From an uncultured Bacilli bacterium (GTDB lineage: Bacteria; Bacillota_I; Bacilli_A; RF39; UBA660): a DNA stretch of 39,269 nt. Shown here in pieces: positions 19,225 through 39,220 of this stretch; position 1 is the first letter of the stretch; each line of letters begins with the position of its first letter. The position numbers and the translations under genes were made by a program. Below the pieces are notes generated by a model. It did not search any database, was not told the DNA's origin, and saw only the letters and a program-made list of their open reading frames with translations. Location: assembly GCA_947626115.1 (NCBI GenBank), contig CANQQX010000010.1, positions 1 through 39,269 of the forward strand. Direction: 5' to 3'.

Positions 19225-19257
19225 ATGTGTCAATTAATAACAAATTTAAACAATTAC

Positions 19258-19287
19258 TTGACTTTAAAAATTCGGGGGGGGTATACT
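19258..19287 (+). promoter_or_regulatory. G-tract promoter of surface protein 1
   Basis: TTGACT (19258-19263) and TATACT (19282-19287) are separated by 18 bp, the last eight being G. Same design as the promoters at 91, 21201 and 22829. Confidence 0.8.
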
Positions 19288-19350
19288 TATAGTAAGGAAA
19301 GGAGAAAAAAGTTTAATACGAACGATTTTAAGAAAGGGAGAATGATAAAT

Positions 19351-21105: not shown

Positions 21106-21128
21106 TTTGCAAAATTAAAATAATGTTA

Positions 21129-21165
21129 AAAACATATTGCTTTGAATAGAGCAGTATGTTTTTTT
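21129..21165 (+). terminator. terminator of surface protein 1
   Basis: AACATATTGCT (21131-21141) pairs with AGCAGTATGTT (21150-21160), one G-T pair, followed by T to 21165. Confidence 0.85.
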
Positions 21166-21200
21166 GTGTGTCAAGAAAAATGTTAAGCTAAATATTGTGG

Positions 21201-21230
21201 TTGACTTTAAAAGTTCGGGGGGGGTATACT
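21201..21230 (+). promoter_or_regulatory. G-tract promoter of surface protein 2
   Basis: TTGACT (21201-21206) and TATACT (21225-21230) are separated by 18 bp, of which the last eight are G. Confidence 0.82.
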
Positions 21231-21289
21231 TATAGTAGGAAAGGAGAAAACTGAAAACAAAATAGTTTTAAAGAAAGGAAGAGGATATT

Positions 21290-22735
21290 ATGAAAAAATT
21301 AAAATTATTTTTAACATCAATAATTGCTATGTTTGTAGCAGTAGTTGGTGTTCATGCTGAAACATTAAAAGATTGCTTAGATGGAGCAACAACTGAAGGC
21401 GTTACTTGTACATTTACTGATGATGAAGAAGAATTATATAGTACTTATATTACAGTAAGTAATAAAGCAACAATTGATTTAGATGGTAAAGAATTGAATT
21501 TAACTCATACACTTGTTGTAGGTACAGGTGCTACTTTAAAAATTACTAGTAGTAATGGAAAAGGAACAATAAATGCTACCACTATTGATAATGGTCAACC
21601 AATAGCTGTTATGCCAGGTGGTACTTTAGAAATTGACAATGTTATAGTTAAGGGAAGAACTACTGAATCAACTAATCATACAAATTATCAAATTATAGCT
21701 ATTCAAGGTGGAGGAAGTTCTGAAACTAAATTTACTTTAGGTAGTAATGCAGAAATTACAGGTTATAATACAGGAGTTGGCGTATTTGGTACTGATACAG
21801 ATGGTGGAAAGCAATATGCTGATAAAGTTGTAGTAGATATTTATGGTAAAATTACAACAGATTCAATGGCAGTTTCAATTAATGGGGTAGTAATACCAAA
21901 TGAAAATGCTGATGATGCTGTTATTAATATTTATGATGGTGCTGAAATAACTTCAACAGATTCTGCTGCTTTATATGCTGCTGGATATGGTACTTATAAT
22001 GTAAAAGGTGGAACTTTAACAGGTACTGTTGGTGTAGTAGCTCGTCAAGGTGACGTAAGTATTACTGGCGGAACTATTATTGCTAATGGTGAAGCAGGTA
22101 CAACTGATAAAGTTGGTAGTAATAATACAGAAGTTCCTTTAGGAGTTGCTGTAGTTGTAGATAATACAACAGCAGGTTATACTGATTCTGCATTAGTAGA
22201 AATAAGCGGTGGAGATTTTAAAGCAACTGCTGAAGAAGCTGTCCATTCATTTAATGAAGGAGAAGGCCATGATATTGTAGTAAGAGGTGGTACTTTTAAT
22301 AAAACAGTTGCTACAAAATATCTTGCTTCAAATGAATTAGGACAATCTGAAAGTGGTGTTGTAGGAAAATTACATAAAATTGAAATTACTAAACCTGAAA
22401 ATGGTAAAGTAGAATCATATACAAATGCTGCTGAAGGTGAAGAAGTAGTTGTAAAAATTGCAGCAGATAAAGGCTATGAAATTAATTCAATTACTATTCT
22501 AGATAAAGATGGTAAAGAAGTTAAATTTGTAAGTGCTGATGGTGGAATTAAATTTACAATGCCAGCAAGTGATGTAACAATTAGTGCAACATTTAAAAAG
22601 ATAGAAACTCCAGTAACAAATACAACGGAAGAAAATCCAAAAACTGGTGATAACATATTAATGTATCTAGGGTTAGGACTAGCAAGTGTTGCAATTGCTA
22701 CATTAAGTGTTAAAAAACTTAGAAAATCTAACTAA
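21290..22735 (+). CDS. sortase-anchored surface protein 2 (beta-helix plus InlB-like repeat)
   Basis: The 481-residue product has a signal peptide (cleavage near VHAET), then a long beta-helix-like region (about 30-350) with repeated -GGT- turns such as YNVKGGTLTG and VSITGGTIIA and VEISGGDFK. A divergent InlB-type repeat follows (about 360-440, ITKPENGKVESY through MPASDVTISATFKK). The C-terminus has ENPKTGD, a hydrophobic helix and KKLRKSN. The first 20 or so residues are almost identical to those of the next gene, and the anchor region is almost identical to protein 1. Confidence 0.87.
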   Translation: MKKLKLFLTSIIAMFVAVVGVHAETLKDCLDGATTEGVTCTFTDDEEELYSTYITVSNKATIDLDGKELNLTHTLVVGTGATLKITSSNGKGTINATTIDNGQPIAVMPGGTLEIDNVIVKGRTTESTNHTNYQIIAIQGGGSSETKFTLGSNAEITGYNTGVGVFGTDTDGGKQYADKVVVDIYGKITTDSMAVSINGVVIPNENADDAVINIYDGAEITSTDSAALYAAGYGTYNVKGGTLTGTVGVVARQGDVSITGGTIIANGEAGTTDKVGSNNTEVPLGVAVVVDNTTAGYTDSALVEISGGDFKATAEEAVHSFNEGEGHDIVVRGGTFNKTVATKYLASNELGQSESGVVGKLHKIEITKPENGKVESYTNAAEGEEVVVKIAADKGYEINSITILDKDGKEVKFVSADGGIKFTMPASDVTISATFKKIETPVTNTTEENPKTGDNILMYLGLGLASVAIATLSVKKLRKSN

Positions 22736-22758
22736 TTTGTAAAATTAAAATAATATGA

Positions 22759-22797
22759 AAAACATATTGCTTGATAAAAGTGATATGTTTTTTTTGT
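22759..22797 (+). terminator. terminator of surface protein 2
   Basis: AACATATTGCTT (22761-22772) and AAGTGATATGTT (22778-22789) form a stem with mispairs in the middle, followed by a T run. Confidence 0.82.
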
Positions 22798-22828
22798 GTC
22801 AACAAAAATGCTAAACCAAAAATTGGGG

Positions 22829-22858
22829 TTGACTTTAAAAGTTCGGGGGGGGTATACT
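22829..22858 (+). promoter_or_regulatory. G-tract promoter of surface protein 3
   Basis: TTGACT (22829-22834) and TATACT (22853-22858) are separated by 18 bp, of which the last eight are G. Confidence 0.82.
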
Positions 22859-22917
22859 TATACTAAGAAAGGAGAAAACTGAAAACAAAATAGTTTTAAA
22901 GAAAGGAAGAGGATATT

Positions 22918-24240
22918 ATGAAAAAATTAAAATTATTTTTAACATCAATAATTGCTATGTTTGTAGCAACAGTTAGTGTTCATGCAACACAATTAAATAT
23001 GCATTCAGATTTGCCTGAATTAGAATTAAAAGAAGAAAAATTTGAAGAAAATGTTCATTATGTTACTGCAACCGTAAAAGTAAATAAGAATAATATCAAT
23101 GCTATACTAAATTATAAAGCAGGTCATAGTGGATCTAATGGTGAAGCATACATTGGTGTATTTTACTTTTCTGCCCAATTACCTGTAACTTTGGGAGATA
23201 CTAAAGTATTAGAAAAAGCTGGTGCTCATGTTACTGATAAAGTATCTTTAGCAGAAGCTATGAAAGAGGCTCAAGCTATGGCTCTAAAACAATATACAGA
23301 TGCAGAGTATAATAAAACTGCTTCAGACAAAAGAAAAGATGAGCATGGCTCTGAAATAGCACATGACACTAAAGATACTATGTGGAATCTTGGTGTAGAA
23401 GTATTATATAAAGATAGCGAAACTGGTGAATGGACAGCATTTGATGAAACTGATACTGGTACCCAAACAATTGGAAATTGGATAGCTCAAAAAGTTGGTG
23501 TTGATTCTGTAAGTGCTGCAGATTATGGTACAAAGTTTATATTTTCTGTACCAGAATATAAGAATTTATTATTATGGAGAGTAACTGATACTGATAATAA
23601 TGAAGTTGTTTCTGAAGAATGGGTACAAGTTACTTATGATATTGAATTCCCTATAACAGCATCAAATGGAGATAGATCATATTATTATTTAACTATGGAA
23701 CAAGCATTAGAAGAAGTAGAAAAAACTGGTGCAACAGATATTACTGTTTATAATGATACAGAAGTAGGAGAAGATGTTACTGTACCTACAGGTGTAACTA
23801 TTAAAACTGCTAATAGTGCTAAATTAACATTCAATGGTGATGTTACAATTGAAGCTGGTGCTGAAGTTACTGGTGATAATGTTATATATGCTGAAGGAGT
23901 AAAAGTTACAAAATATTATGCTGTAACAACTGAAGCTGAACATGGTAAAGTAACTGTTGATAAAGCATCTGCTCAAAAAGATGAAGTAGTTAAAATTACT
24001 GTTAAAGCTGATGAAGGTTATGAATTAGATAAATTATATGTTGATGGTAAAGAACAAACTGAATTAACATTTAAAATGCCTGAAAAAGATGTAGTTGTAA
24101 AAGCAACATTTAAGAAAGTTGCTGGTATAGTTGAAGAAAATCCTAAAACTGGTGATAACATTTTGATGTATCTTGGTTTAGGACTTGCCAGTGTTGCAGT
24201 AATTACATTAAGTGTTAAAAAACTAAAGAAATCAAACTAA
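22918..24240 (+). CDS. sortase-anchored surface protein 3
   Basis: The 440-residue product has the same signal peptide as protein 2 (cleavage near VHATQ) but a different main domain (about 25-240) that I do not recognise; it contains TVKVNKNNINAILNYKAG and AYIGVFYFSAQL. A short beta-helix-like piece (about 250-335) follows, then an InlB-type repeat (TTEAEHGKVTVDK through MPEKDVVVKATFKK) and the NPKTGD anchor with KKLKKSN. The swap of the central domain between shared ends is typical of modular surface-protein families. Confidence 0.85.
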   Translation: MKKLKLFLTSIIAMFVATVSVHATQLNMHSDLPELELKEEKFEENVHYVTATVKVNKNNINAILNYKAGHSGSNGEAYIGVFYFSAQLPVTLGDTKVLEKAGAHVTDKVSLAEAMKEAQAMALKQYTDAEYNKTASDKRKDEHGSEIAHDTKDTMWNLGVEVLYKDSETGEWTAFDETDTGTQTIGNWIAQKVGVDSVSAADYGTKFIFSVPEYKNLLLWRVTDTDNNEVVSEEWVQVTYDIEFPITASNGDRSYYYLTMEQALEEVEKTGATDITVYNDTEVGEDVTVPTGVTIKTANSAKLTFNGDVTIEAGAEVTGDNVIYAEGVKVTKYYAVTTEAEHGKVTVDKASAQKDEVVKITVKADEGYELDKLYVDGKEQTELTFKMPEKDVVVKATFKKVAGIVEENPKTGDNILMYLGLGLASVAVITLSVKKLKKSN

Positions 24241-24733: not shown

Positions 24734-24817
24734 AATATTGCAGAGTTAGTATTACAAGTAAATGAAGAAATTGTAAAAAGACATGGAATAAATTAATTAA
24801 AAATGAAAGGCAAAATT

Positions 24818-25756
24818 ATGACAGAAGAAAAAATATACAGCGAAATAGTTGAGTTAATTGAAGAAGGAGAAGTTAAAAAATTTGTTAGAGAATTTAAAGA
24901 AAATTCAGAAACTTTAAAAACAAATTGGGAAATAGGTAGACTACTAGTAAATGCTCAAGGTGGAGAATCCAGAGCAAAATATGGTGATAATTTAATTAAG
25001 AAATGGGGCGAAAAATTATCTTTAGATTATGGTAAGAATTATGGAACAAGGAATTTAAAAATTTTTAGACAATTTTATTTAACTTTTCCAATTGTGCACG
25101 CACTGCGTGCACAATTAACATGGACACATGTAAAAATATTATTACCTATTAAAAATGAGAATGAACGAAACTATTATATAAACCAAATTATACTTAATAA
25201 TTTATCTAGTCGTGAATTAATTCAAGAAATAAAAAGTAAAGCTTTTGAAAGATTATCTTATGCCGATAAAAATAATATTAAGTTAATAACAGATAATGAT
25301 AATTCGATAACATTAAGTGATATGATAAAAGATCCAATAATTATTAAAACTGATAAAGATACTACTAATTTAACTGAACAAAAGTTACATGAAATATTAA
25401 TTGAATTGGTTGAAAATCATTATATGGAGCTAGGTGTAGGTTTTGCTTTAATAGGCCATGAATATAAATGCAAAATAGATAATAGAACATATAAAATAGA
25501 TTTATTATTCTTTAATTATAAAATAAATGCCTTTGTCGTAGTAGAAGTAAAGATAAAAGAATATAATCCAAAAGATAGAGGACAAATAGAGTCGTATATG
25601 GATTATGTTGATAAAAATATAAAAGAAAATTATCATAATAAAACAGAAGGTATATTAGTAGTAAGAGAAAAAAATAAATTAGTTACTAAATATGTTTCAA
25701 ATAATAATTTATATATCACTACTTATTTATTAGAAAATAAAAAACAAGTTAATTAA
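24818..25756 (+). CDS. YhcG-type PD-(D/E)XK nuclease (DUF1016)
   Basis: The 312-residue product has a DUF1016 N-terminal domain (about 5-150; EIGRLLVNAQGG, then ALRAQLTWTHVKILLPI) and a C-terminal PD-(D/E)XK nuclease domain (about 180-300) with YKIDLLFFNYKINAFVVVEVKI supplying the Asp and ExK. These nucleases occur in defence islands, with restriction systems and as standalone genes; the precise activity is not established for most. ATG at 24818 has AAAGG at 7 bases; the ATG at 24803 lacks a site. A 27-bp palindrome lies inside the coding region. Confidence 0.88.
   Translation: MTEEKIYSEIVELIEEGEVKKFVREFKENSETLKTNWEIGRLLVNAQGGESRAKYGDNLIKKWGEKLSLDYGKNYGTRNLKIFRQFYLTFPIVHALRAQLTWTHVKILLPIKNENERNYYINQIILNNLSSRELIQEIKSKAFERLSYADKNNIKLITDNDNSITLSDMIKDPIIIKTDKDTTNLTEQKLHEILIELVENHYMELGVGFALIGHEYKCKIDNRTYKIDLLFFNYKINAFVVVEVKIKEYNPKDRGQIESYMDYVDKNIKENYHNKTEGILVVREKNKLVTKYVSNNNLYITTYLLENKKQVN
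25090..25116. repeat. 27-bp perfect palindrome inside the nuclease gene
   Basis: Arms AATTGTGCACGCA (25090-25102) and TGCGTGCACAATT (25104-25116) are exact complements around a single C at 25103. It has far higher GC than its surroundings and encodes part of IVHALRAQL at the end of the N-terminal domain. Confidence 0.85.
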
Positions 25757-25810
25757 TATATAAAAATAATATAAGTTAATTTAAAAACATATTATTTATT
25801 GGTGAATAAT

Positions 25811-26902
25811 ATGTTTTTTAATGATATTCATACTAGAATTCGTTTTACATTTTTAGTAGTAATTATAATTTTGTTATTAGTAATAGGGAAAGTATTTTAT
25901 ATTCAAGTAATATCTTATAATAAACTTTCAAAAATTACTGAAGATTTATGGAGTAGAAAGATGACTATTAATGCCCCAAGGGGAGATATAGTTGATAGGA
26001 ATGGTAATATATTAGCAACTAGTCTAGTTACAACAACTATATATGTTGTACCTAATCAAATTAAAGATAAAGAAAAAGTATCTAAAGATATTGCTGAAAT
26101 TTTAAATTGTGATTATGATGATGTTTATAAATATGTCTCTAAACATAGTAGTATGGAAATCATTAGAAAAGGAATGGATTTAGATAGTGAAACAGCAGAT
26201 AAAATAGATAAACTAGGATATGATGGAGTATATTTAGTAGTAGATTCTAAAAGATATTATCCTTATGGGGAAACTTTAGCTCATATTATTGGTTTTGTTG
26301 GCAGTGATAATCAAGGTCTATCAGGACTTGAACTTACTTATGATAAATATTTAACGGGTACTAATGGAGAATTAAAATACTATAGTGATGGTAAAGGTAA
26401 TAAATTAGAAATACCCGATAGTTATGTAGCACCGACTAAAGGAATGACTTTAAAATTAACTTTAGATATAGAACTTATTAAAGCAGTTGATAATGAGATA
26501 AATAATGCCATGGATAAATATGATTCGGAATCAGCTTTAGCAATTGCGATGCGTCCTAATACAGGAGAAATCCTTGCCATAGGTAGTAAGCCTTCATTTG
26601 ATCCGGATAATTACCAAAAATACAGTGAAGAAGTTATTAATCGTAATCTACCTATATGGATGACTTATGAACCAGGTTCGACTTTTAAAATTATTACGCT
26701 TGCTAGTACTATTGAAGAAGGAACAGTTGATTTATTTAAAGATACTTTTACTGATACGGGTGCAATAACAATTGATGGCTCAACTTTGCATTGCTGGAAA
26801 CACGGTGGCCATGGTACGCAAACGTACTTGGAAGTAGTAGAGAATTCTTGTAATCTTGGAGTCAATACAGGAACACATACAAATTTGAAGAATATGCTTT
26901 AA
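25811..26902 (+). pseudogene. truncated class B penicillin-binding protein
   Basis: The 363-residue frame has an N-terminal membrane helix, the PBP dimerisation region with APRGDIVDRNGNILATS, and the front part of a transpeptidase domain with SxxK (EPGSTFKI) and SxN (ENSCN). Right after that Asn it stops matching the family, runs on for about 15 residues and ends, so the KTG motif and about 200 residues are lost. It cannot be an active transpeptidase. It probably arose by recombination with the DUF5655-like fragment that starts in another frame at about 26854. Start ATG at 25811 has GGTGA upstream. Confidence 0.8.
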
Positions 26903-26964
26903 ATAACACAAAAAATTATACCCAAATTGATGTTTGTTCTACCTTTAATTTAGTTTATAATAAT

Positions 26965-27783
26965 GTGTCTTATACAAATAATGAAGATATTAAAATAGAT
27001 AATTCTATAATACAAATTACTTCTAACAAAAAAGATGATACTAAAAAAATTAATAATAAATTATATAATATAGATACTAATACTTATGAAAATATAATAT
27101 ATAATAAAAAGCAAATTGCTATTGATTTGTTAAATAAATTAGATTCTTCTATAATGGCTATTAGTAAAAATATTATAAAGAATTATTTAGTAAAAAATAT
27201 TGTTTATAAATTAAATAATAAAATCGCTGAAATTCAAGTAAATCAAAATAACTTATTAGTATGTTTTCATAAAGTTGCTAAGCAATTTGATATTGAAAAT
27301 AAATTAATAAATCGTAAAGGATATGAAAATAAGAATATGTGTTATTCTTTAACTGTTGAAGATAATGATAGCTGTAATTATGCAATTAAAATTGTTGAAA
27401 ATTTATATAATTATTTTACTACTCCACAGGAAAGTTTAAGTGATATTCTATTTAGTACTTTAAAGTTTAAAATTAGTACATTAGATTATTCTATAAGTGA
27501 GCATACGACTAATAAAGGTTTGATGTTTAAGGGCAAAAGAAATTTTGTATTATTATCCAAGACAAATTATGGTGTTTATGTTAGATTATTAAATGTTGAT
27601 AATTCAAATAATGAATTAAATGTTGTAACTAGAAAAAGTTATGAGCCACTATGTTTATCATATAAAGTTAAAAATATTGAAGATATTGATATATTATTAC
27701 CTTATATCAAAGAAAGCTATAAATTATGTAATATTAATCCTGTTGATTTAAAATATGAATTTTATAAAATATATCAAGTTTAA
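26965..27783 (+). pseudogene. C-terminal fragment with two DUF5655-like domains
   Basis: The frame is open from about 26854 with no convincing start or ribosome site; GTG at 26965 is only a nominal start. The protein part holds two related modules ending in similar blocks: YKLNNKIAEIQV...AIKIVENLYNYF and GKRNFVLLSKTNYG...DIDILLPYIKESYKL. This pattern resembles DUF5655, a small C-terminal domain often fused to nucleases or to predicted transport proteins. It is likely the tail of a larger gene whose front was replaced by the truncated PBP. Confidence 0.6.
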
Positions 27784-27880: not shown

Positions 27881-28303
27881 ATGAAATTAAATTATGTAGG
27901 ATATATTAATGGAAAAGATATTGATGAAATAGAAAATCAGAAAAAAAAGATTATTGACTATACAAGTTCCTTAGGCATAAAAATAGATCATTTTTATATA
28001 GACAATGATTGTTCTAGTCCTATTTCTGATAGGCGAGAATTAAACCAAATGTTAAAAGATGCTAAGACTAAAAAAAATATCAAAGAGGTTTTTAGTGTTA
28101 ATAATTCAATTTTAAGTAATGACATATATGAAGTAAATGATATAATTCAAAAACTATGTAGATATAATGCTATATTTACATCATTATTAGAAAATGAACA
28201 TTTAAAAAATAATATAGTGATAGAACTTGAATTGTATTTTAAAAGAGAAGAAAAAGAAAGAAGAAAATTGAGAGAAAATTTTTTAAAATCAAAATTAATT
28301 TAA
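27881..28303 (+). CDS. resolvase-like protein lacking catalytic residues
   Basis: The 140-residue product follows the fold outline of a serine-recombinase N-terminal domain: YVGYINGKD, then a Q/K helix, KIDHFYIDNDCSS, then RRELNQMLKDAK, and a late helix pair. In active enzymes the first motif is YxRVS with the catalytic Ser; here the Arg is Tyr and the Ser is Asn. The usual RLSR block is FSVNNSILSND. The DNA-binding C-terminal domain is absent, replaced by a charged helix. It could be a decayed or a repurposed recombinase. AGAGAGG precedes the ATG. Confidence 0.6.
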   Translation: MKLNYVGYINGKDIDEIENQKKKIIDYTSSLGIKIDHFYIDNDCSSPISDRRELNQMLKDAKTKKNIKEVFSVNNSILSNDIYEVNDIIQKLCRYNAIFTSLLENEHLKNNIVIELELYFKREEKERRKLRENFLKSKLI

Positions 28304-28330
28304 CAATTTTATAAGAAATTCTTATATAAA

Positions 28331-28358
28331 AAAGTGAATCAAATGATTCATTTTTTTA
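28331..28358 (+). terminator. terminator after the resolvase-like gene
   Basis: TGAATC (28335-28340) and GATTCA (28345-28350) enclose a four-base loop and are followed by seven T. Confidence 0.85.
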
Positions 28359-28381
28359 TTACAACTATTAAAGGATATTTA

Positions 28382-28409
28382 TTTGTAATAAACATTTCTA
28401 TGTTATAAT
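28382..28409 (+). promoter_or_regulatory. promoter of the endonuclease-RT pair
   Basis: TTTGTA (28382-28387) and TATAAT (28404-28409) are separated by 16 bp, about 45 bases before the start of the endonuclease gene. Confidence 0.55.
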
Positions 28410-28453
28410 ATTTATAGTTAGATAGTAATTATTATTTAGAAAGTAGGGGTGCT

Positions 28454-29194
28454 ATGAAAATAATATCTTTTAATGTTAATGGGCTTAATTCTGCAATAAG
28501 TAAAGGTTTATTAAATTTTATAGAAGATGAAAAACCAGATATTTTATGTTTACAAGAAACAAAATGTCAAAATAAAATTTTAACTCTCAATACCTATTAT
28601 TCGTATTGGAATTTTAGCAATAAAGGAAGTTTTTCTGGAACAGCAATTTTTACTAAGTATAAGCCAATAAATGTATATTATAATTTTGAAGATGATTTTA
28701 ATGTTGAAGGTAGAATAATAACATTAGAATATCATAAATTTTATTTAATTAATGTTTATATTCCAAATTCAAAATCAAATAATATTAGATTGGATTACAG
28801 AATGGAATGGGATGATAGATTTTTTAAATATATTTTAAAATTAGAAAACAATAAGCCTGTAATATTATGTGGTGATTTTAATGTCGCCATTAAAGAAGAT
28901 GATACTAATCAGAAAGAATCAGTTTTTTTAAATAATGAAGTAATTGAATTTATATCTTTAATTGATTCAGGTTTTATAGATACTTTTAGATATAAGCATG
29001 GTAATATAAAAAATGCTTTTACTTGGTGGAATGTAAATGTTGGTAATAAAGAATTAAATATAGGATCAAGGTTGGATTATTTTTTAGTTTCTAATTATTT
29101 TAAAAAATATATTAATGATTCTGTTTTAAAAAGCGATATTAATATATCAGACCATTGTCCTATTATGTTAGATATTGGAGTTAATACTGATTAA
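28454..29194 (+). CDS. exodeoxyribonuclease III-type (EEP) endonuclease
   Basis: The 246-residue product has the exonuclease/endonuclease/phosphatase core: FNVNGLN, CLQETKCQ (metal Glu), NVYIPNS, CGDFNVA (Asp/Asn) and SDHCPIMLD (catalytic His). Family enzymes cut at abasic sites and digest 3' ends. It is closer to ExoA/Xth than to other EEP branches, but several loops are short, the central R-x-N-x-G-W stretch is replaced by a short GSRLDYF, and an acidic insert is missing. It is followed after two bases by the reverse transcriptase gene, which makes a simple housekeeping role less likely. Confidence 0.85.
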   Translation: MKIISFNVNGLNSAISKGLLNFIEDEKPDILCLQETKCQNKILTLNTYYSYWNFSNKGSFSGTAIFTKYKPINVYYNFEDDFNVEGRIITLEYHKFYLINVYIPNSKSNNIRLDYRMEWDDRFFKYILKLENNKPVILCGDFNVAIKEDDTNQKESVFLNNEVIEFISLIDSGFIDTFRYKHGNIKNAFTWWNVNVGNKELNIGSRLDYFLVSNYFKKYINDSVLKSDINISDHCPIMLDIGVNTD

Positions 29195-29196
29195 TT

Positions 29197-31242
29197 ATGG
29201 AAATGCCAGATGATTTGTTAGAAGAAAAATGGCTTGAATGTGATTTTAAACAAGCTAAAGCAAAGTTAGAAAAAGACCAAATATTATTGACAAAAGCAGT
29301 ATTTAAAAAGAGAGATGCTGATATTGAATTTTTATCTAATAAAATAGTTAATTCTTTATATGCTAAAATTTTAGCTGTTAAAAAAGTTTCGGAAGAATTA
29401 AATTCAGCATCTGGTATTGATAGAGTAAAATGGATAACCCCAGCTGAAAAAATGCGAGCTTCCATGTCTTTAAATCCAAAGGATTATAAGGCAAAACCCT
29501 TTAAACATTTTGTAATTAAAGATGAGAAAGCTAGTAAAGAAAGAAGAATAAATATTCCATCAATGTTTGATAGAGCAATGCAAGTTTTATATTTAATGGC
29601 TTTAACACCAATTGCTGAAGCTACTGCAGATAGAAAATCTTTTGCTTTTAGAAAGGGAAGATCAGCATTAGATGTTCATGCTCTTATTATGGATTCGTTG
29701 AATGATTATAATGCACCAAAATATATATTAATTTGCGATGTAAAATCTTACTATGATTCTATTAGTCATCAGTGGATTTTAGACAATATTCCAATTAATA
29801 AAAAAGTATTAAAAGAATTTTTAAAAGCAGGGTTTGTTTTTAATAATGAGATTTTTCCAACTGATATTGGTATTTCATTAGGTTGTAATATATCGCCCAC
29901 AATAGGAAATATGGTTTTAGATGGATTACAATATGAATTGTATAATTTGCAAGATAAATCTAATATGGATTATTATGATGGCTATATGATTAGATTTGCA
30001 GATGATATATTAATTTTTGCAAGAACTATTGATAGTGCAAATAAGTTTTTAGAAGTAACTACATCTTTTGTTAAAGAAAGAGGTTTAGAAATAAATAAAA
30101 AGAAAACTTATATAACTACAATAGAAGATGGATTCGAGTTTTTATCAAGAAGATATTATAAATCGTATGGATATATTCGATGTGTTCCATCAGAAAAAGC
30201 AATTGATAATTTTAAAAAAGAACTATATGATTTAATTCTGAATAGTGATAAAAGATGGTCGCAAAAAAAATTAATTGATACATTAAATGCAAAACTAACA
30301 GGTTGGGCTACTTATCATAGAGTAAGTGATGCTTCAGAAGAATTTAAAAAACTTGATTCTTATATATCAGCTTTATTATTAAATTTAATAAAAAAAATGT
30401 ATCCAAAAATTCCTATTAAAACATTAATAAAAAAATATTGGTATATAGATTCAAAAGGAAGAGAAATTTTTGCATTAACTACTAATAAAAGCATAAGTGT
30501 TATTAAATTAGAAGATGTTATACTTGTAACTCATAAAAGATTAGATACAAAACAAAATATTTATTTAGATAAAGAATATTTTAGGGATAGAAGTACAATA
30601 CAAGATATTAATAAGGTTTCTGGTGGATATAAAACCATTTGGAATCGACAAAATGGCAAATGCTATTATTGTGGTAAAGATATTAATGCTAATCAAGAAA
30701 GAAAAATAGTTATAAAAAATATTACTTCAAAAGATAGAACATTAAAAAATTATGTTTATGTTCATTCACATTGTGTAGATTCAGAGATTTTATTTGTAAA
30801 ATCATCTTATGGTGATCTCAATAGAGTAGATATTGAAAAAGTTATATCCGAGATAAAAGATCCAAATATTATTCATTTGTTAGTAAAAAAAGGCAAGTAT
30901 TCTAATTTATATGAATTTTTTGCAAATTGTAATAAATATACTTTTTCAATGAGTTTTAAAGAAATTGAAGAAATAATTGATGATAAATTATGCAATTCTT
31001 TATATAAATATGAGAATTATTGGAAATTAAAAGGTAAAGGATTAATTTCCAATTGTTGGTTAGATAATGGTTATCAATTAAAAAGAATATATTTAAAAGA
31101 AAAAAAAGTTACTTTTCTTAGAATTAAAAAAGTAACTTCTAAATTGAATATTCCAGATGAACTATTAGGAGTTTTACCAGATAACGCAGTAACTGAGTTA
31201 AATCAATTTTTTAATTATATAATAAAAAAATATGGTCTTTAA
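29197..31242 (+). CDS. group II-type reverse transcriptase with HNH-like and C-terminal domain
   Basis: The 681-residue product has the RT core at about 90-330, with ICDVKSYYDSIS and the catalytic FADD at residues 267-270 (the usual motif is YADD). ATYHRV-type residues (about 370) fit the maturase region of group II intron proteins. A zinc-type CYYCGKD and a later HSHC (about 489-535) recall an HNH nuclease but lack a clear HNH core. The C-terminal about 65 residues (FKEIEEIIDDKLC...WLDNGYQLKRIYLKEKKVTFLRI) resemble the small domain I know as DUF7662, an unusual fusion. It follows the endonuclease with no gap for a separate promoter. No flanking intron RNA structure was recognised. Confidence 0.78.
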   Translation: MEMPDDLLEEKWLECDFKQAKAKLEKDQILLTKAVFKKRDADIEFLSNKIVNSLYAKILAVKKVSEELNSASGIDRVKWITPAEKMRASMSLNPKDYKAKPFKHFVIKDEKASKERRINIPSMFDRAMQVLYLMALTPIAEATADRKSFAFRKGRSALDVHALIMDSLNDYNAPKYILICDVKSYYDSISHQWILDNIPINKKVLKEFLKAGFVFNNEIFPTDIGISLGCNISPTIGNMVLDGLQYELYNLQDKSNMDYYDGYMIRFADDILIFARTIDSANKFLEVTTSFVKERGLEINKKKTYITTIEDGFEFLSRRYYKSYGYIRCVPSEKAIDNFKKELYDLILNSDKRWSQKKLIDTLNAKLTGWATYHRVSDASEEFKKLDSYISALLLNLIKKMYPKIPIKTLIKKYWYIDSKGREIFALTTNKSISVIKLEDVILVTHKRLDTKQNIYLDKEYFRDRSTIQDINKVSGGYKTIWNRQNGKCYYCGKDINANQERKIVIKNITSKDRTLKNYVYVHSHCVDSEILFVKSSYGDLNRVDIEKVISEIKDPNIIHLLVKKGKYSNLYEFFANCNKYTFSMSFKEIEEIIDDKLCNSLYKYENYWKLKGKGLISNCWLDNGYQLKRIYLKEKKVTFLRIKKVTSKLNIPDELLGVLPDNAVTELNQFFNYIIKKYGL

Positions 31243-31251
31243 TATTATAAA

Positions 31252-31545
31252 TTATTTCCTTTCATCAACTCTTGTAAAAGTTGTTTTATGTTTTGGATCA
31301 TATCTAAGTAGCTCTGAACTTGTCATTTTTAGTTTAGAATCTATATTTTTATTCATTCCATTTGCAATTTTATCTAACATATCGATTGTTGGTTTTCTTT
31401 TACAATTTTCTAGTTGATTAATATATACTAAATTACTACCAACTTTTTCAGCAAATTTTTCTTGTGAGAGATTATACTTTTCTCTATAATATTTTAAATT
31501 CATTGATAAAATTTGTTTAGTATTTAAATTATCATTTATGCACAT
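31252..31545 (-). CDS. XRE-type helix-turn-helix regulator
   Basis: The 97-residue product contains a Cro/cI-type HTH at about 14-70 (NLKYYREKYNLSQEKFAEKVG, then VYINQLENCKRKPTIDMLDKIA) with a short charged tail. Minus-strand ATG at 31545 has GGAGG at 7 bases. It converges on the reverse transcriptase gene, ending 10 bases after its stop, so it may control the endonuclease-RT pair or simply be a neighbour. Confidence 0.85.
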   Translation of the reverse strand: MCINDNLNTKQILSMNLKYYREKYNLSQEKFAEKVGSNLVYINQLENCKRKPTIDMLDKIANGMNKNIDSKLKMTSSELLRYDPKHKTTFTRVDERK

Positions 31546-32021: not shown

Positions 32022-33263
32022 ATGAGTGAAAAATATTTGATTATTAATGCAGGTAGTTCATCTTTGAAATTTTCTTTATATGAAGTGCCAGAAATGAAAG
32101 AAATTGTTAATGGCTATATTGAAAAAATTGGCAATGTAGATAGTTTTTATACACTTAAATTTAATGGCAAAAAATTAGAAAAAAGAAAAGCTATTATGGA
32201 TCATACTGAAGCAGTAAGAACAATGCTTGAAGAATTATTAGATAATCAATTTATTGTTGATGTTAGTGAAATCAAAGGAATTGGTCATCGTGTTGTACAT
32301 GGAGGAGAATTTTACTCACAATCAGTTGTTATTGATGAGGAAGTGTTAAATAATATTAAAGATTTAACTAAACTTGTTCCACTTCATCATCCAGGTGAAA
32401 TAGCAGGAATCGAAAGTATGAAAAGTATTATGCCAGATGTTCCACAAGTTGCAGTTTTTGATACTGCTTTTCATCAAACAATGCCAAGAGAAAATTATAT
32501 GTATGCACTACCTTATAGTTGGTATGAAGAAAATGGTGTTAGAAAGTATGGATTTCATGGAACAAGCCATCGATATATTACAGAAGAAATGCAAAAGTAT
32601 TTTAATAAAAAAGATGTTAATTTAATTATTTGTCATATTGGTAGTGGTGCAAGTATAAGTTGCATAAAAGATGGCGAATGTTATGATACATCAATGGGTT
32701 TAACACCTTTAGATGGTCTTATAATGGGTACGAGAAGTGGTAGTATTGATAGCTCAATTATTGAATATATTTGTAAAGAAAGAAGTTTAACAGTTGAAGA
32801 AGTAACATCAATTTTAAATAAGAAAAGTGGTTTACTTGGAATAGCTGGTCAAAATGATTTTAGGGATTTAGAAGCTTTAGCAAATAAAGGCGATGAAAAA
32901 GCACAATTAGCAATAAAAATGCTAAGAAATTCAATAGCAAAATTTATTGCTCAATACTATGTTGAATTAGGTGGACAAGTTGATGCTCTTGTGTTTACAG
33001 CTGGAATTGGCGAAAACGCAATAACTTTGAGATCTGACATTATTAAATCTATTTCTAGTGCAATGGGTATCGAATTAGATGCTGATGCTAATAATAATAT
33101 TGCTAGATTTAAAGAAATTCAAAGTGGAGTTATTTCTACTTTAAGTTCTAAATTTAAAGTAATGGTAATACCAACTAATGAAGAATATATGATATTAAAA
33201 GATACTTTTGAATTAAGTCAACAAGTAAAATCAAAAGGACAATCAAAAGTATTGAAGAAATAA
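32022..33263 (+). CDS. ackA: acetate kinase
   Basis: The 413-residue product has the acetokinase motifs: NAGSSSLKFS at the start, GHRVVHGGE, AVFDTAFHQTMP, KYGFHGTSHR, GLTPLDGLIMGTRSGSID and FTAGIGENA. It makes ATP from acetyl phosphate plus ADP, the last step of acetate fermentation. The length is normal with a short Lys/Ser tail. GAGGTGAAAT precedes the ATG. No phosphotransacetylase gene is present in the window. Confidence 0.97.
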   Translation: MSEKYLIINAGSSSLKFSLYEVPEMKEIVNGYIEKIGNVDSFYTLKFNGKKLEKRKAIMDHTEAVRTMLEELLDNQFIVDVSEIKGIGHRVVHGGEFYSQSVVIDEEVLNNIKDLTKLVPLHHPGEIAGIESMKSIMPDVPQVAVFDTAFHQTMPRENYMYALPYSWYEENGVRKYGFHGTSHRYITEEMQKYFNKKDVNLIICHIGSGASISCIKDGECYDTSMGLTPLDGLIMGTRSGSIDSSIIEYICKERSLTVEEVTSILNKKSGLLGIAGQNDFRDLEALANKGDEKAQLAIKMLRNSIAKFIAQYYVELGGQVDALVFTAGIGENAITLRSDIIKSISSAMGIELDADANNNIARFKEIQSGVISTLSSKFKVMVIPTNEEYMILKDTFELSQQVKSKGQSKVLKK

Positions 33264-34578: not shown

Positions 34579-34619
34579 ACACCTTTTAATGATATATTAA
34601 TCATTAGGAGGTGTTTTTT
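34579..34619 (+). promoter_or_regulatory. terminator-like hairpin containing the ribosome site of the methyltransferase gene
   Basis: ACACCT (34579-34584) pairs with AGGTGT (34609-34614) around an inner AATGAT (34588-34593)/ATCATT (34600-34605) stem, followed by TTTTTT. AGGAGG (34606-34611), the ribosome site of the next gene, is inside the 3' arm. It could be the terminator of the WYL gene, an attenuator, or both. Confidence 0.6.
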
Positions 34620-35516
34620 GTGGATATAATTATGAGTTCTAAAAAACCAGAGGTAAATATTGAGTACTTTGGACAGCAATCGAGATTTTATAATTTTTTT
34701 GAAACAATAGTAGATGATTTATTACATGGTAAAGGTATTTATGCAGAAACAAATTCAGGATCTAATTGTAATGCATATATGTATGCAAAAAAAGGTTACA
34801 AAGTTATTACAAATGATATAAGTGAATACAGCTTTTCAGTAGCTAATGCTATTATGAGTAATAATATACCAGTTAATTTTGCATGTAAATATGATTGGTT
34901 AGAACAATATAGTGATTCTTATATAAAAAGAGCTTCTGTATTTGCTAGCGTTGTTGAACTTTATGGCTATAATGCTGAAATACCAAGTGAACTAAATAGC
35001 AATTTAAAAAATAAAATCGATGAATATATTAAATACTTTACAAATATTAATTCAAAAAATGTAAAAGCATATAAAATATATAACGAAGATTTATTTTGCT
35101 ATTTAAAAAAATTATATAAAGATAATATTAAAGTTGATATTATGTTTATGGATTTTGCATGGCCATGGAGAGATGGAAGTAAAACAGAAGAATATAATAC
35201 TACTGCTAATATTTATAGTAATGTTTTTGAACCATCAAAATTTAAAAACATTGAAATATGGGATAAAAATAATGTTATTGATAATGTTATTAAAGCAGTA
35301 AAAGAAGCAAAAAAAGTTTCTAGATATGTTTTGCTATCAAATCAAAGTTCTAATTATCCAACTCCAGAATTATTAGAAGTAGCATTATTAAAAAATAATT
35401 TAAATTATGAAATTAGACATACTATGCTGACAAATGCTGAATACGAAGACAATTTAGGTAAAGAAACATTTTTTAGGGAATATTTATATGTAATAAGGGG
35501 CGATGTAGATGACTAA
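34620..35516 (+). CDS. D12-class DNA adenine methyltransferase-like protein
   Basis: The 298-residue product resembles DNA adenine methylases of the D12 kind in order: YFGQQSRFYNFFETIV, then YAETNSGSNCNAYMYA (SAM loop), KGYKVITNDISEYS, and the catalytic-position MDFAWPWRDG. The usual catalytic motif is DPPY; here it is DFAWPW, so catalysis is uncertain. GTG at 34620 is chosen because AGGAGG ends 8 bases before it; ATG at 34632 is too far. Its last 8 bases overlap the next gene. The partner restriction enzyme is absent. Confidence 0.68.
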   Translation: MDIIMSSKKPEVNIEYFGQQSRFYNFFETIVDDLLHGKGIYAETNSGSNCNAYMYAKKGYKVITNDISEYSFSVANAIMSNNIPVNFACKYDWLEQYSDSYIKRASVFASVVELYGYNAEIPSELNSNLKNKIDEYIKYFTNINSKNVKAYKIYNEDLFCYLKKLYKDNIKVDIMFMDFAWPWRDGSKTEEYNTTANIYSNVFEPSKFKNIEIWDKNNVIDNVIKAVKEAKKVSRYVLLSNQSSNYPTPELLEVALLKNNLNYEIRHTMLTNAEYEDNLGKETFFREYLYVIRGDVDD

Positions 35517-36009
35517 AACTAATTATCCATTGGTTAAGGTTGAATGGGAAGAAGTGCAAAATTTAGCTTTTAAAATTGCAGAACAAATTATAGCAGATAA
35601 AAAAGATATTGATTTAATTGTTCCAATATTACGAGGTGGAATGCCAGTTGCTATGCTTCTTTCTTCTATGCTGAATGTTGAAGAAATGTCTTGTATTCAT
35701 ATAAAAAGAAGTGTTAATGATAATCCAAATACAGAATTTAAAAAAATACCAATTTATAAAGGAATTACTAATAGCGAAAAAATTACTGGTGCAAATATAC
35801 TAATTGTAGATGATACTTTAGATTCAAAAATTACATTAGATTTTACTGTTGATTTATTAAAAAAATATAATCCAAAAAGTATTAATATAGCAATTTTATA
35901 TAATTTTAATAAAGATACATTTGAAAATGTTTATAGTGGTGAAGAAGTTAGAAATTATAAATGGGTTGTCTTTCCATGGGAGGACAAGCAAATTAAGGGA
36001 GGTATTTAA
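35509..36009 (+). CDS. phosphoribosyltransferase
   Basis: The 166-residue product has the type I phosphoribosyltransferase fold: DLIVPILRGGMPVAMLLSSML near the start and the PRPP loop at about 95-110 (ANILIVDDTLDSKITL, in place of VDDxxDTGxT). Family members transfer phosphoribosyl between PRPP and a base or related acceptor. It is closer to hypoxanthine/xanthine transferases than to others, but the acceptor is not predictable. The ATG overlaps the methyltransferase gene. Confidence 0.86.
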   Translation: MTKTNYPLVKVEWEEVQNLAFKIAEQIIADKKDIDLIVPILRGGMPVAMLLSSMLNVEEMSCIHIKRSVNDNPNTEFKKIPIYKGITNSEKITGANILIVDDTLDSKITLDFTVDLLKKYNPKSINIAILYNFNKDTFENVYSGEEVRNYKWVVFPWEDKQIKGGI

Positions 36010-36010
36010 A

Positions 36011-36460
36011 TTGAAAAATAATAAATGGCAAGTTTGTATTTGTGGAGCTATTAAATGCGAACATGAATACTTAATGGTAAAAAGAAGTTTAAATGATGAA
36101 GATTGTGCAGGATTTTGGGAAATGCCTAGTGGAAAACTTGAATTTGGTGAAAAAGTAGCGGATGGTTTAAGAAGAGAAATTTTTGAAGAGGTTGGTATTG
36201 ATGTTGCACCTTTTGAACAAAGAATTATTGGAATTTCAGAATATTCATCTGAAAAACCTGAGGGTACTAAATATAGTGTTCAATTAAATTATGTTATAGA
36301 AGTGCCTACTAAAGAATTAGATATTAAATTAAGTAATGAACATACGGATTTTGTATGGGCTACTAGAGATTCAGAATATGTTGATGAATTTATTGCTGAA
36401 ATTATTGATGCCATAGAGCCAAATAGAGAAGAAGGATATGCAAGGACTAAAAAAATGTAA
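36011..36460 (+). CDS. Nudix hydrolase
   Basis: The 149-residue product has the full Nudix box at about residues 41-63 (GKLEFGEKVADGLRREIFEEVGI pattern: GxxxxxE...REUxEExGU). Nudix enzymes cleave nucleoside diphosphates linked to another group. It begins at TTG 36011, preceded by GGGAGGT, rather than an upstream ATG at 35921 inside the phosphoribosyltransferase gene. It overlaps the next start by 23 bases. Confidence 0.9.
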   Translation: MKNNKWQVCICGAIKCEHEYLMVKRSLNDEDCAGFWEMPSGKLEFGEKVADGLRREIFEEVGIDVAPFEQRIIGISEYSSEKPEGTKYSVQLNYVIEVPTKELDIKLSNEHTDFVWATRDSEYVDEFIAEIIDAIEPNREEGYARTKKM

Positions 36461-37286
36461 AAAAATATTAATAGAAGTTAATCAAACTTGTAATTTAAAT
36501 TGTACTTATTGTTTTTATAGGGATTATGGAAGAAACACACAGAGTTTAAGTTTAAATAGTATTAATGAAATGTTAGAAAGATGTCCTAATGTAAAAGAAT
36601 TTTATTTAACAGGTGGTGAATGTTTTACTTCTCCTATTATAGAAGAAATAATAAAGAAACTTTCACAAGTTGGAAAAGTTTTTGTTTTTACAAATGGAGT
36701 AGTATTAAATAAATATGATGATAGCAGACTGTTAAATGTTGTTAGCAATGTTGATAGATTTATAATGAGTTTTGATTCATTTGATTTTAAAAATTATTTT
36801 TGTAGAAAGGAATTAGATCAAACTATTAGTACTATTAAAAAGATTCTACATATTAATCCTGAAAAAATTGAAGTCAAAGTTTGTATTACTCATTATAACT
36901 ATAATAACATCGATGAAATATTCAATAACTTAGTAAAAATGGGAGTGAAATTTTTATCAGTAAATTTTGTGTTTGATATACATCATTCTGATATAAAACA
37001 TGAAGTAAAAGACATATCAATATTAAAAAATATATTTAATGTTATATATAAATATAAAAAGTATTTTAATGTTGATTATATAGATATGTTATATGATTTA
37101 TATATAAATAATATTATAAATGAAAAATTCCCATGTTTGGCAGACCAAGAATACTATTATTTAGATTGTACTAATCAATATCTAATTTGTCCAGGAAATT
37201 GTAAGAAAATTGGAAAAAGGGAAAATTGGAAAAACTGTTTTTCAAAGGAATGTGCTAACGAATGGGAAATTATGTATATGAGGTGA
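36438..37286 (+). CDS. radical SAM enzyme with C-terminal Cys cluster
   Basis: The 282-residue product has the radical SAM Cys motif at residues 18, 22 and 25 (CNLNCTYC) with LTGGECF and FTNG in the usual order. The last 60 residues carry six further Cys (FPCLADQ, LDCTNQ, ICPGNCK, NCFSKEC), suggesting an auxiliary iron-sulfur cluster as in SPASM-type or other family members. The substrate cannot be named. The start overlaps the Nudix gene, and it is 7 bases before the kinase gene. Confidence 0.87.
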   Translation: MQGLKKCKKILIEVNQTCNLNCTYCFYRDYGRNTQSLSLNSINEMLERCPNVKEFYLTGGECFTSPIIEEIIKKLSQVGKVFVFTNGVVLNKYDDSRLLNVVSNVDRFIMSFDSFDFKNYFCRKELDQTISTIKKILHINPEKIEVKVCITHYNYNNIDEIFNNLVKMGVKFLSVNFVFDIHHSDIKHEVKDISILKNIFNVIYKYKKYFNVDYIDMLYDLYINNIINEKFPCLADQEYYYLDCTNQYLICPGNCKKIGKRENWKNCFSKECANEWEIMYMR

Positions 37287-37293
37287 AATAGAA

Positions 37294-37935
37294 ATGAATA
37301 TTATTTTTGAAGGAGTTGATGGTGCTGGTAAAACAACCATCATTGATAGTCTTAGAAAAGATTTAGAAAGAAAAAAGGAAATTGTTAGATATATAGATGA
37401 AATAACCCAAGATTCACCTATTAGTGAAATTTTAGGGAAAATGTTAAGTGATGATCCATTCTTTATGCTTGACAAATCGTTTCCAACTTCAATTTTTGAA
37501 AGCTTATTATTAGTAGCAGATATGCATTATCGCCAAGAAAGATATAAATATAATGATGGTTATAATTTATATGATCGAGATTTTCTTTCTATATTGTCAT
37601 ATCAAAAAGAAATCTTAAAACAAGATTATAGTAATTATATGGATTTTTATAGACCTTTTAAAGAAATTGTATTATTCAATTTAAAACCAATAGACTTATT
37701 AGTTTATGTTCATGTACCATTAGAAGTAAGTGTTTCTAGGGTGGCATCAAGGGATAATATTGAATTTTTAGAAAAGCAAAAAAGATTTTTATTAACTTTG
37801 AAAGAATCTTTAGAACAAGAATTACTACCTGAACTAGAAAGTCAAAAAATAAGGATTTTAAGATTAGATGGTCGTGAAACACCTGATAATAATGTTTCTA
37901 AAATATATAGAGAGATTGGCTATGGAAAAAATTAA
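37294..37935 (+). CDS. thymidylate-kinase-like P-loop kinase
   Basis: The 213-residue product begins with the P-loop FEGVDGAGKTT, then has YDRDFLSILSYQKE, matching the DRY/R..S..AYQ block of thymidylate kinases, and SRVASRDNIEF as a lid. Related kinases phosphorylate dTMP or modified nucleotides. The specificity is not certain: the LID and NMP-binding parts are divergent. It overlaps the aminotransferase gene by 14 bases and follows the radical SAM gene by 7. Confidence 0.85.
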   Translation: MNIIFEGVDGAGKTTIIDSLRKDLERKKEIVRYIDEITQDSPISEILGKMLSDDPFFMLDKSFPTSIFESLLLVADMHYRQERYKYNDGYNLYDRDFLSILSYQKEILKQDYSNYMDFYRPFKEIVLFNLKPIDLLVYVHVPLEVSVSRVASRDNIEFLEKQKRFLLTLKESLEQELLPELESQKIRILRLDGRETPDNNVSKIYREIGYGKN

Positions 37936-39220
37936 AGTTAATCCTGATTTTATGATTTATACCGATGAAGAGAAAGAAAGTGCATTAAATTGTTTATCTA
38001 ATAGTGATTCTAGTATTTTTGTTGGGAATACTATATCAACTTTTGAACAAAAATTAGCAAATTATTTAAAAGCAAAATATTCTTTAGCTTTGCCTAATTG
38101 CACTTTATCTATTTTTGCAACATTGCAAACTTTAGGCATTAGTCCTAATGATGAAGTTATTGTTCCAAATCTTACACATGCATCTTCCATATATCCAATA
38201 ATAATGAGTGGTGCTAAAATTAAAGTATGTGATTTTCAAGCAAATTCTTATTATTATGATATAGAAAGTATTAAAAAACTTATTACACCAAAAACAAAAT
38301 TTTTACTTGCATGTTATCTATATGGGATGCCATTAAACATTCAAGAAATTCAAGATTTATGTGAAAAATATGGAATAACATTAATTGAAGATGTTGCACA
38401 GGCTTTTGGTACAAAGATCAATAATAAATATGCTGGTACTTTTGGGAAGGTTGGATGTTATAGTTTTAATGATACAAAAATGTTGAGAATTGGTGAAGGT
38501 GGTGCAATAGTTACAAATGATAAGAAGATTTTTGAACAAATTGAACATTTTAGACATGTAGGGGAAGTATTTAATTCAACGAAAAAATCATCTGTAAGTT
38601 CAAATACTACATATAGAGATCTTTTATTTAATGGGCTTTCTAATGATGGTAAGGGATTAAATTTAAGACCATCACCATTAGCATTTTCTACTGGTGTTAA
38701 ACGAATCGATTTAATTGATGATTATATAAATAAACGAAGAGAAAAGTTACAACTTTATGTAGAAAAATTATCTAATATTAAGGGAATTAATTTTATTTCT
38801 AATTTTAATATTTCTAATATTAGTGATTATGCACCAATTGCTTTGTGGATTGTATTAGATAATAATTTTTATGATAGAAATAGAGTTATTTTAGGCTCTA
38901 TAAATATGGGAATACCTATTGGATCATTCAATTATAATACTATTATTAAAAATGATTATTTTAAAAATTATATTATTAATAAGTCAGATACTTTAGAACA
39001 ATCACAGTATATAAGAGATAACAGTATATTTTTACCATTATATGAATCGCTTTCTATGGAAGATATAAAAAAAATATGTGATGCTTTTAAATATGTCATT
39101 GATAATTATAAAAAGAATATTGATATATTTGATGAAAGTGTATATGATGAAGAAATTAGTTATTTTGATGGATTTTATCTAATGAGGAGGAGAAGGTTGA
39201 AAATAAAAAGTAAATTTTAA
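37922..39220 (+). CDS. DegT/DnrJ/EryC1/StrS-family aminotransferase
   Basis: The 432-residue product follows the sugar aminotransferase fold (about 20-400): SLALPNCTLSIFAT, EVIVPNLTHASS, TLIEDVAQAFG and YSFNDTKMLRIGEGGAIVTND, where Lys in NDTKM is the PLP-binding residue. Family members transfer an amino group to keto-sugars linked to nucleotides. It has a C-terminal extension of about 40 residues with a Lys/Arg-rich end. ATG at 37922 overlaps the kinase stop; an upstream ATG at 37868 is inside the kinase gene. The product sugar is unknown. Confidence 0.88.
   Translation: MEKIKVNPDFMIYTDEEKESALNCLSNSDSSIFVGNTISTFEQKLANYLKAKYSLALPNCTLSIFATLQTLGISPNDEVIVPNLTHASSIYPIIMSGAKIKVCDFQANSYYYDIESIKKLITPKTKFLLACYLYGMPLNIQEIQDLCEKYGITLIEDVAQAFGTKINNKYAGTFGKVGCYSFNDTKMLRIGEGGAIVTNDKKIFEQIEHFRHVGEVFNSTKKSSVSSNTTYRDLLFNGLSNDGKGLNLRPSPLAFSTGVKRIDLIDDYINKRREKLQLYVEKLSNIKGINFISNFNISNISDYAPIALWIVLDNNFYDRNRVILGSINMGIPIGSFNYNTIIKNDYFKNYIINKSDTLEQSQYIRDNSIFLPLYESLSMEDIKKICDAFKYVIDNYKKNIDIFDESVYDEEISYFDGFYLMRRRRLKIKSKF

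Follow-up and report, generated by a model that had tools for sequence, protein, structure and literature searches.

An ExoIII/APE-type endonuclease coupled to, and at some loci fused with, a group II-type reverse transcriptase that lacks an intron, in Bacillota and viral contigs

Eukaryotic LINEs are known to solve priming by pairing an APE-type endonuclease with a reverse transcriptase (RT). According to the LINE-1 structure paper, group II introns lack the N-terminal APE-like endonuclease (EN) (PMC10830420). Efficient retrohoming of RmInt1, whose IEP is devoid of an endonuclease, requires the host ExoIII XthA4, and the same enzyme inhibits an endonuclease-bearing intron (PMC5010178). The group II-like G2L4 RT mends breaks by MMEJ (PMC12337344), and one survey gives G2L4 as restricted to Proteobacteria (PMC4244168). 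In the group II introns with LAGLIDADG endonucleases, the ribozyme is kept and the enzyme is encoded instead of the usual RT/maturase (PMC13190283). The RT types named in the two surveys consulted are group II, CRISPR, G2L, UG, Abi, DGR, and retron, and word searches of both returned neither an EEP nor an exonuclease as a partner (PMC4244168, PMC8934634). The literature searched, most subscription journals lying outside its reach, contained no description of a prokaryotic EEP-RT pair. To our knowledge, a bacterial fusion of an APE-type nuclease with an RT has no precedent.

The 39,269-nucleotide stretch of DNA analyzed here (the window) belongs to a small gut bacterium and carries an EEP gene that ends 2 bases before the start of a group II-type RT gene with a FADD motif, the open reading frames being precisely as the initial annotation described them (Table 1). 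The window EEP matches the xth profile TIGR00633 (E 1.9e-70, 237 bits; curated cutoff, 99), and its nearest solved structure is B. subtilis ExoA (5cfe; E 2e-65, 224 bits), with only 37 to 40 bits against LINE ENs. Residues N7, E35, Y102, D141, N143, D208, D233, and H234 are present in it, invariant in the nine paired EEPs and likewise conserved in solo ExoAs; judged from this alignment, the EEP active site is intact. A tryptophan corresponding to W280 of APE1 is invariant in 30 solo ExoAs and substituted in six of the nine paired EEPs. E. coli ExoIII also lacks it, and we therefore do not take its loss as a loss of AP activity. In the EEP tree, the nine paired enzymes are split from the 30 solo ExoAs by a branch with support of 100/97. 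The enzyme had been called divergent from housekeeping ExoA; it does fall outside the solo-ExoA clade, but it is clearly of the ExoA type, scoring above the xth cutoff and being 42% identical to a Clostridia ExoA. What the window EEP has of a housekeeping ExoA (xth) is thus the catalytic residues and the curated score, whereas paired EEPs neither group with the solo ExoAs nor are conserved across the host lineage.

Table 1. Positions in the window of the EEP and RT genes and of the RT domains
Feature	Position	Strand	Basis
EEP, ExoIII/ExoA/APE-type endonuclease, 246 aa	28454..29194	+	ORF list, profile and structure searches, alignment
Group II-type reverse transcriptase without intron, 681 aa, FADD active site	29197..31242	+	ORF list, Pfam, profiles
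RVT_N, N-terminal extension, aa 12-92	29230..29472	+	Pfam
RVT_1 fingers/palm, aa 111-316, catalytic D181, D269, D270	29527..30144	+	Pfam, alignment
GIIM maturase/X (thumb) domain, aa 337-415	30205..30441	+	Pfam; 8/8 members
Degenerate HNH, zinc ligands C489, C492, H523, C526	30661..30774	+	Alignment, model
DUF7662, aa 568-640, winged-helix-like in predicted model	30898..31116	+	Pfam, model

The window RT matches the group_II_RT_mat profile (E 2.3e-70, 237 bits), and its best PDB match is the group II maturase 6me0 (E 3e-84, residues 9 to 526). Pfam finds RVT_1, RVT_N, and GIIM in eight of eight members. The FADD motif occupies residues 267 to 270 of the window RT, and every aligned member retains the motif-A aspartate and FADD/YADD, leaving the RT active site intact as far as sequence can tell. 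The initial annotation was right about the group II type and the FADD motif but overlooked two C-terminal elements, a degenerate HNH/zinc element and DUF7662. In the first, the HNH catalytic histidine pair and the last H are replaced in all eight aligned members, the four zinc ligands are invariant, and an HNH-like fold persists in the predicted model of the C-terminal region. The catalytic histidines are retained in the group II controls L044 and L048; a further control, the phage group II RT L047, is also stripped of them. Since L047 is the RT of a true group II intron, HNH decay need not be tied to the gain of an EEP. The phage record itself (MT836602) holds a complete-looking group II intron whose RT lacks the HNH histidines. 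The second element, DUF7662, is winged-helix-like in the predicted model and nearest to CtsR-DNA and RepE-DNA, with weak Z scores of 4.8 to 4.9, and likely binds DNA. A large serine recombinase of another genome (G1100, L070, 67-1791) ends in DUF7662, the tail domain of the EEP-linked RT, which fits such a role.

RT relatives were drawn from public genomes and viral contigs. At all nine loci with upstream sequence (window counted), an EEP lies immediately upstream of the RT, either as an adjacent or overlapping gene (window, L003, L026 of genome G139, L049 of genome G700, L005, and L028) or within a single ORF at Clostridia/viral loci (L004, 967 aa; L027, 944 aa; G1022, 961 aa). Excluded from this count are L006/L123 and G1020, truncated at contig ends, of which L123 is a further instance of the L005 island. 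A neighborhood conserved in no relative, with RT homologs always solitary, had been named as what would speak against the link, and the nine informative loci show the reverse. The RTs of paired loci are united in a single clade, separate from group II and other RTs (support, 98/94). Within it, the subclade of the window, L003, G139, and G700 has support of 100/99 in both the EEP and the RT tree, and L005, L028, and G1022 group together in each. These trees indicate that the EEP-RT pairing is a single old partnership, inherited as a unit, and not a product of chance. The window genes match those of L003, G139, and G700 at 75 to 82% of second codon positions and at 33 to 44% of four-fold sites; identity so much higher at second positions implies purifying selection, by which both proteins are maintained.

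Neither an intron RNA nor a conserved ncRNA of the retron kind was found beside the pair. Within 9 kb around the window pair, cmscan found no Rfam family, and group II RNA is absent at the window, L003, L004, L005, L026, and L027 (Rfam, E up to 1-2), the only signal being a subthreshold SAM-II match in L026. D1-D4 was recovered upstream, and D5-D6 downstream, of each of the five nearest group II RTs examined as positive controls. A structured RNA had been anticipated near 28304-28453 or after 31242, and none that is conserved came to light. The 5′ segment (28304-28453) folds better than shuffles (z, -3.45), but the fold takes in the terminator-like hairpin of the upstream gene (28329-28356) and nothing there is conserved in relatives, and we rejected it as a partner RNA; the 3′ flank is unstructured (z, -1.1). 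DNA homology among the window, L003, G139, and G700 runs from near the EEP start codon to the RT stop codon. That it ends at these codons argues against both an adjoining ncRNA of the DRT/retron type and a LINE whose UTRs are conserved. The direct or inverted repeats found to bound the pair are merely short AT-rich chance matches. A group II-type RT with its X domain and HNH fold, its intron RNA gone, might be what is left of a decayed mobile group II intron that came to lie behind exoA by chance. The conserved EEP-RT coupling refutes this reading, with nine coupled loci, three fusions, parallel trees, and purifying selection in both genes, and we regard it as extremely improbable.

The EEP-linked RT shares RVT_N, RVT_1, the X/thumb domain, and the HNH fold with the RTs of mobile group II introns of the T.el4h (6me0) type, from which it differs by the lack of intron RNA and HNH catalytic residues and by the presence of DUF7662 and an EEP partner or fusion. 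Like the domesticated G2L4 RT, it is an intron-less group II-like enzyme; however, all aligned members have FADD/YADD, not the YIDD of G2L4, they are associated with an EEP and a zinc/winged-helix tail, and they come from Bacillota and viral contigs. G2L3/UG10 is defined by valine as the second residue of YADD (PMC4244168), whereas this residue is alanine in the YADD/FADD of all aligned EEP-linked RTs. Reminiscent of the DRT/UG defense RTs is the combination of an RT and a partner enzyme in islands with restriction or candidate defense genes. Nevertheless, no DRT class is the best profile (for the window RT, RT_UG4 gives 74.8 bits and Drt3a 47.9 bits, with a cutoff of 200, against the 237 bits of group_II_RT_mat), and no conserved ncRNA stands beside the pair. 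No Cas protein, the trait of CRISPR-associated RTs (RT-Cas1), occurs among the neighboring ORFs scanned. The LAGLIDADG introns (PMC13190283) are likewise a group II lineage given a foreign nuclease family, but EEP-RT has lost the ribozyme and kept the RT.

The likeness to G2L4 raises the possibility of a DNA repair module, in which the EEP would trim blocked or abasic ends and a G2L4-like RT would fill or join them by microhomology, in hosts mostly without ExoA. In line with this, the EEP is ExoA-like with every catalytic residue, searches of the window, L003, G139, and G700 genomes brought up no EEP other than the paired one, and G2L4 sets the example of repair by MMEJ. The distribution of the pair speaks against it, since it is sporadic and lies in islands rather than core loci. 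EEPs are common across the phylum, with 75 positive genomes among 295 (the window's own counted), and the EEP-RT pair is rare: 36 of 38 genomes of the host genus are without an EEP match, both positive genomes carrying the pair, the host family has a full-length RT in 2 of its 193 searched genomes, the window's own genome is the sole one with a full-length RT match in the samples of the class and the phylum, and the order of G709 has full-length C-terminal RT matches in 3 of 394 genomes. In addition, G709 has the pair plus a second, solo ExoA, the RT shows the canonical FADD/YADD, and the tryptophan that is invariant in ExoAs is mostly replaced in the paired EEPs. We consider such a dedicated repair module rather doubtful.

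Most loci, though not all, look like islands with recombinase, restriction, or candidate defense genes. The G700 pair adjoins a type IIG restriction-modification gene and a PLD/SNF2 helicase, the L028 pair sits 360 bp before hsdM, and the L005 pair is near an FRG protein (PDC-S15). The stretch that holds the window pair includes YhcG (PDC-S02; 24803-25756), a truncated PBP, a DUF5655 fragment, and an N-terminal fragment of a serine recombinase. Integrases, serine recombinases, or an ICE-type Y-family polymerase are read from the ORF tables at L003, L005, L004, and L027, the L003 integrase being the sole one of these recombination/ICE genes confirmed by Pfam. At some loci, L003 and G139 among them, no defense gene was recognized.

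Other features of the window were noted in passing. The 140-aa serine recombinase (27881-28303) comprises the N-terminal domain only and lies 150 bp before the EEP. A chimeric junction near 26880 (within 25799-27783) joins a PBP cut inside its transpeptidase domain to a 5′-truncated DUF5655 (PDC-S18-like). Three surface-protein genes (19225-24240) have near-identical starts and ends (for example, 20966-21357 versus 22597-22985, 91.6%) and differing middles, possibly forming a recombination cassette. A second acetate kinase (32022-33263) has relatives at 70% (G695) and 60% (G676), other genus members being at 47 to 53%. The genes at 34611-39220, most of them overlapping or closely spaced, resemble those for a DNA methyltransferase-like protein, a phosphoribosyltransferase, a NUDIX hydrolase, a radical SAM protein, a thymidylate kinase-like protein, and a DegT-type aminotransferase. 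An Xre-type HTH protein (31252-31545 in the window, and near several loci) was rejected as a fixed partner, the proteins being unlike one another by eye. Comparison with same-genus ackA loci gave matches to ackA and the next gene only, and no clean empty site emerged.

The pair could also be a bacterial LINE-like retrotransposon, whose EEP would nick the chromosome and whose RT would copy its own mRNA by target-primed reverse transcription; the enzyme pairing is that of ORF2p and, in the fusions, so is the domain order (PMC10830420). The genome G1022 (Clostridiales) bears directly on this idea, with four related EEP-RT loci, one intact (C70, L079) and three broken or partial: C74 (L089) is frameshifted and lacks its 3′ end, C129 (L080) lacks the middle, and C101 (L081) is a C-terminal piece only. 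The sequence that C74 and C129 have in common with C70 starts at the start codon, and C129 and C101 share 22 bp (ATATCTGCTGCTTTTCACACCC) ahead of the same C-terminal piece, with different flanks. Both the copy number and the common start are in favor of such an element. The truncations are reminiscent of LINE copies, but they lack the conserved 3′ ends that a LINE would show, and contig ends interfere. Moreover, C70 and C74 agree at 79% of four-fold sites, which makes the copies old. No second copy was found in the window and G139 genomes (RT search) or in the L003 and G700 genomes (EEP search). In IMG/VR, there were no near-identical copies at new sites; only the L005 island recurs, a second metagenome contig with the L005 RT matching it at 99.8% across 6.4 kb and so giving no new site. 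Relatives have no DNA in common outside the two ORFs, and the RT stop is often followed by another gene at a distance of ~10 bases or less (L003, L028, G700, and window), leaving no room for a 3′ UTR. An autonomous element of this kind therefore seems to us unlikely.

The likeness to LINE-1 is nevertheless apparent in the fused proteins. An AlphaFold model of the fused L004 protein (mean pLDDT, 78.7; pTM, 0.53; low-confidence linker, residues 262 to 291) resembles ExoA (5cfe) over residues 1 to 254 (Z, 31.9) and the group II RT 6me0 over residues 302 to 728 (Z, 30.5). Among the Foldseek matches listed, LINE-1 ORF2p (9hdr) alone aligned over both halves (893 columns, E 1.6e-20), with a low TM because the domains are differently placed. 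As in LINEs, the APE-type nuclease is N-terminal to the RT (nine of nine informative loci, three of them fused), and the fused proteins follow the ORF2p order of N-terminal APE-type nuclease, RT, and C-terminal zinc element. In contrast to LINEs, the best matches in sequence and fold comparisons are bacterial ExoA and group II RT, and no ORF1, UTRs, poly(A), or multicopy spread is apparent for EEP-RT. Since both EEP and RT are bacterial in origin, the ORF2p-like architecture looks, most simply, like convergence rather than kinship with LINEs. The parallel with eukaryotic non-LTR elements drawn in the initial annotation thus extends, in fused relatives, to the domain order.

We favor, as on balance probable, the view that EEP-RT is a domesticated, intron-less group II RT teamed with its own ExoIII/APE-type nuclease for priming and serving an accessory role. 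Coupling and three fusions, intact sites, the loss of intron RNA and of HNH residues, co-inheritance, and residence mostly in islands all point in this direction. In such a scheme, the EEP would nick DNA, or clean a blocked or abasic end, and expose a 3′-OH; the zinc element and the C-terminal winged helix would hold the RT on DNA; and the RT, with RNA or DNA as its template, would extend the EEP-made 3′-OH (target-primed synthesis). The EEP may thereby replace the former priming cut of the HNH domain, as the APE-type EN does in LINE-1. The need of RmInt1 retrohoming for an ExoIII is a precedent for priming supplied by an EEP. As to the accessory function in mobile islands, phage defense would be the leading candidate, while still short of probable, DNA end repair a tentative second, self-copying an improbable third, and any other role more improbable still. 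We rate an autonomous retrotransposon as less likely than island-borne defense or DNA repair. We also put forward, with reserve, the bolder possibility of a prokaryotic target-primed RT machine that became ORF2p-like independently and writes RNA-derived DNA into nicks for defense or self-copying.

A group II-type RT that has lost HNH activity and gained an APE-type nuclease suggests that the same architecture as that of LINEs arose in bacteria. The step from a group II RT to LINE-like target-primed reverse transcription becomes experimentally accessible in a small bacterial enzyme, and the fused proteins, at 944 to 967 aa, offer compact candidates for DNA writing primed at nicks. With EEP-RT, domesticated group II RTs would now extend past CRISPR-RT and G2L4.
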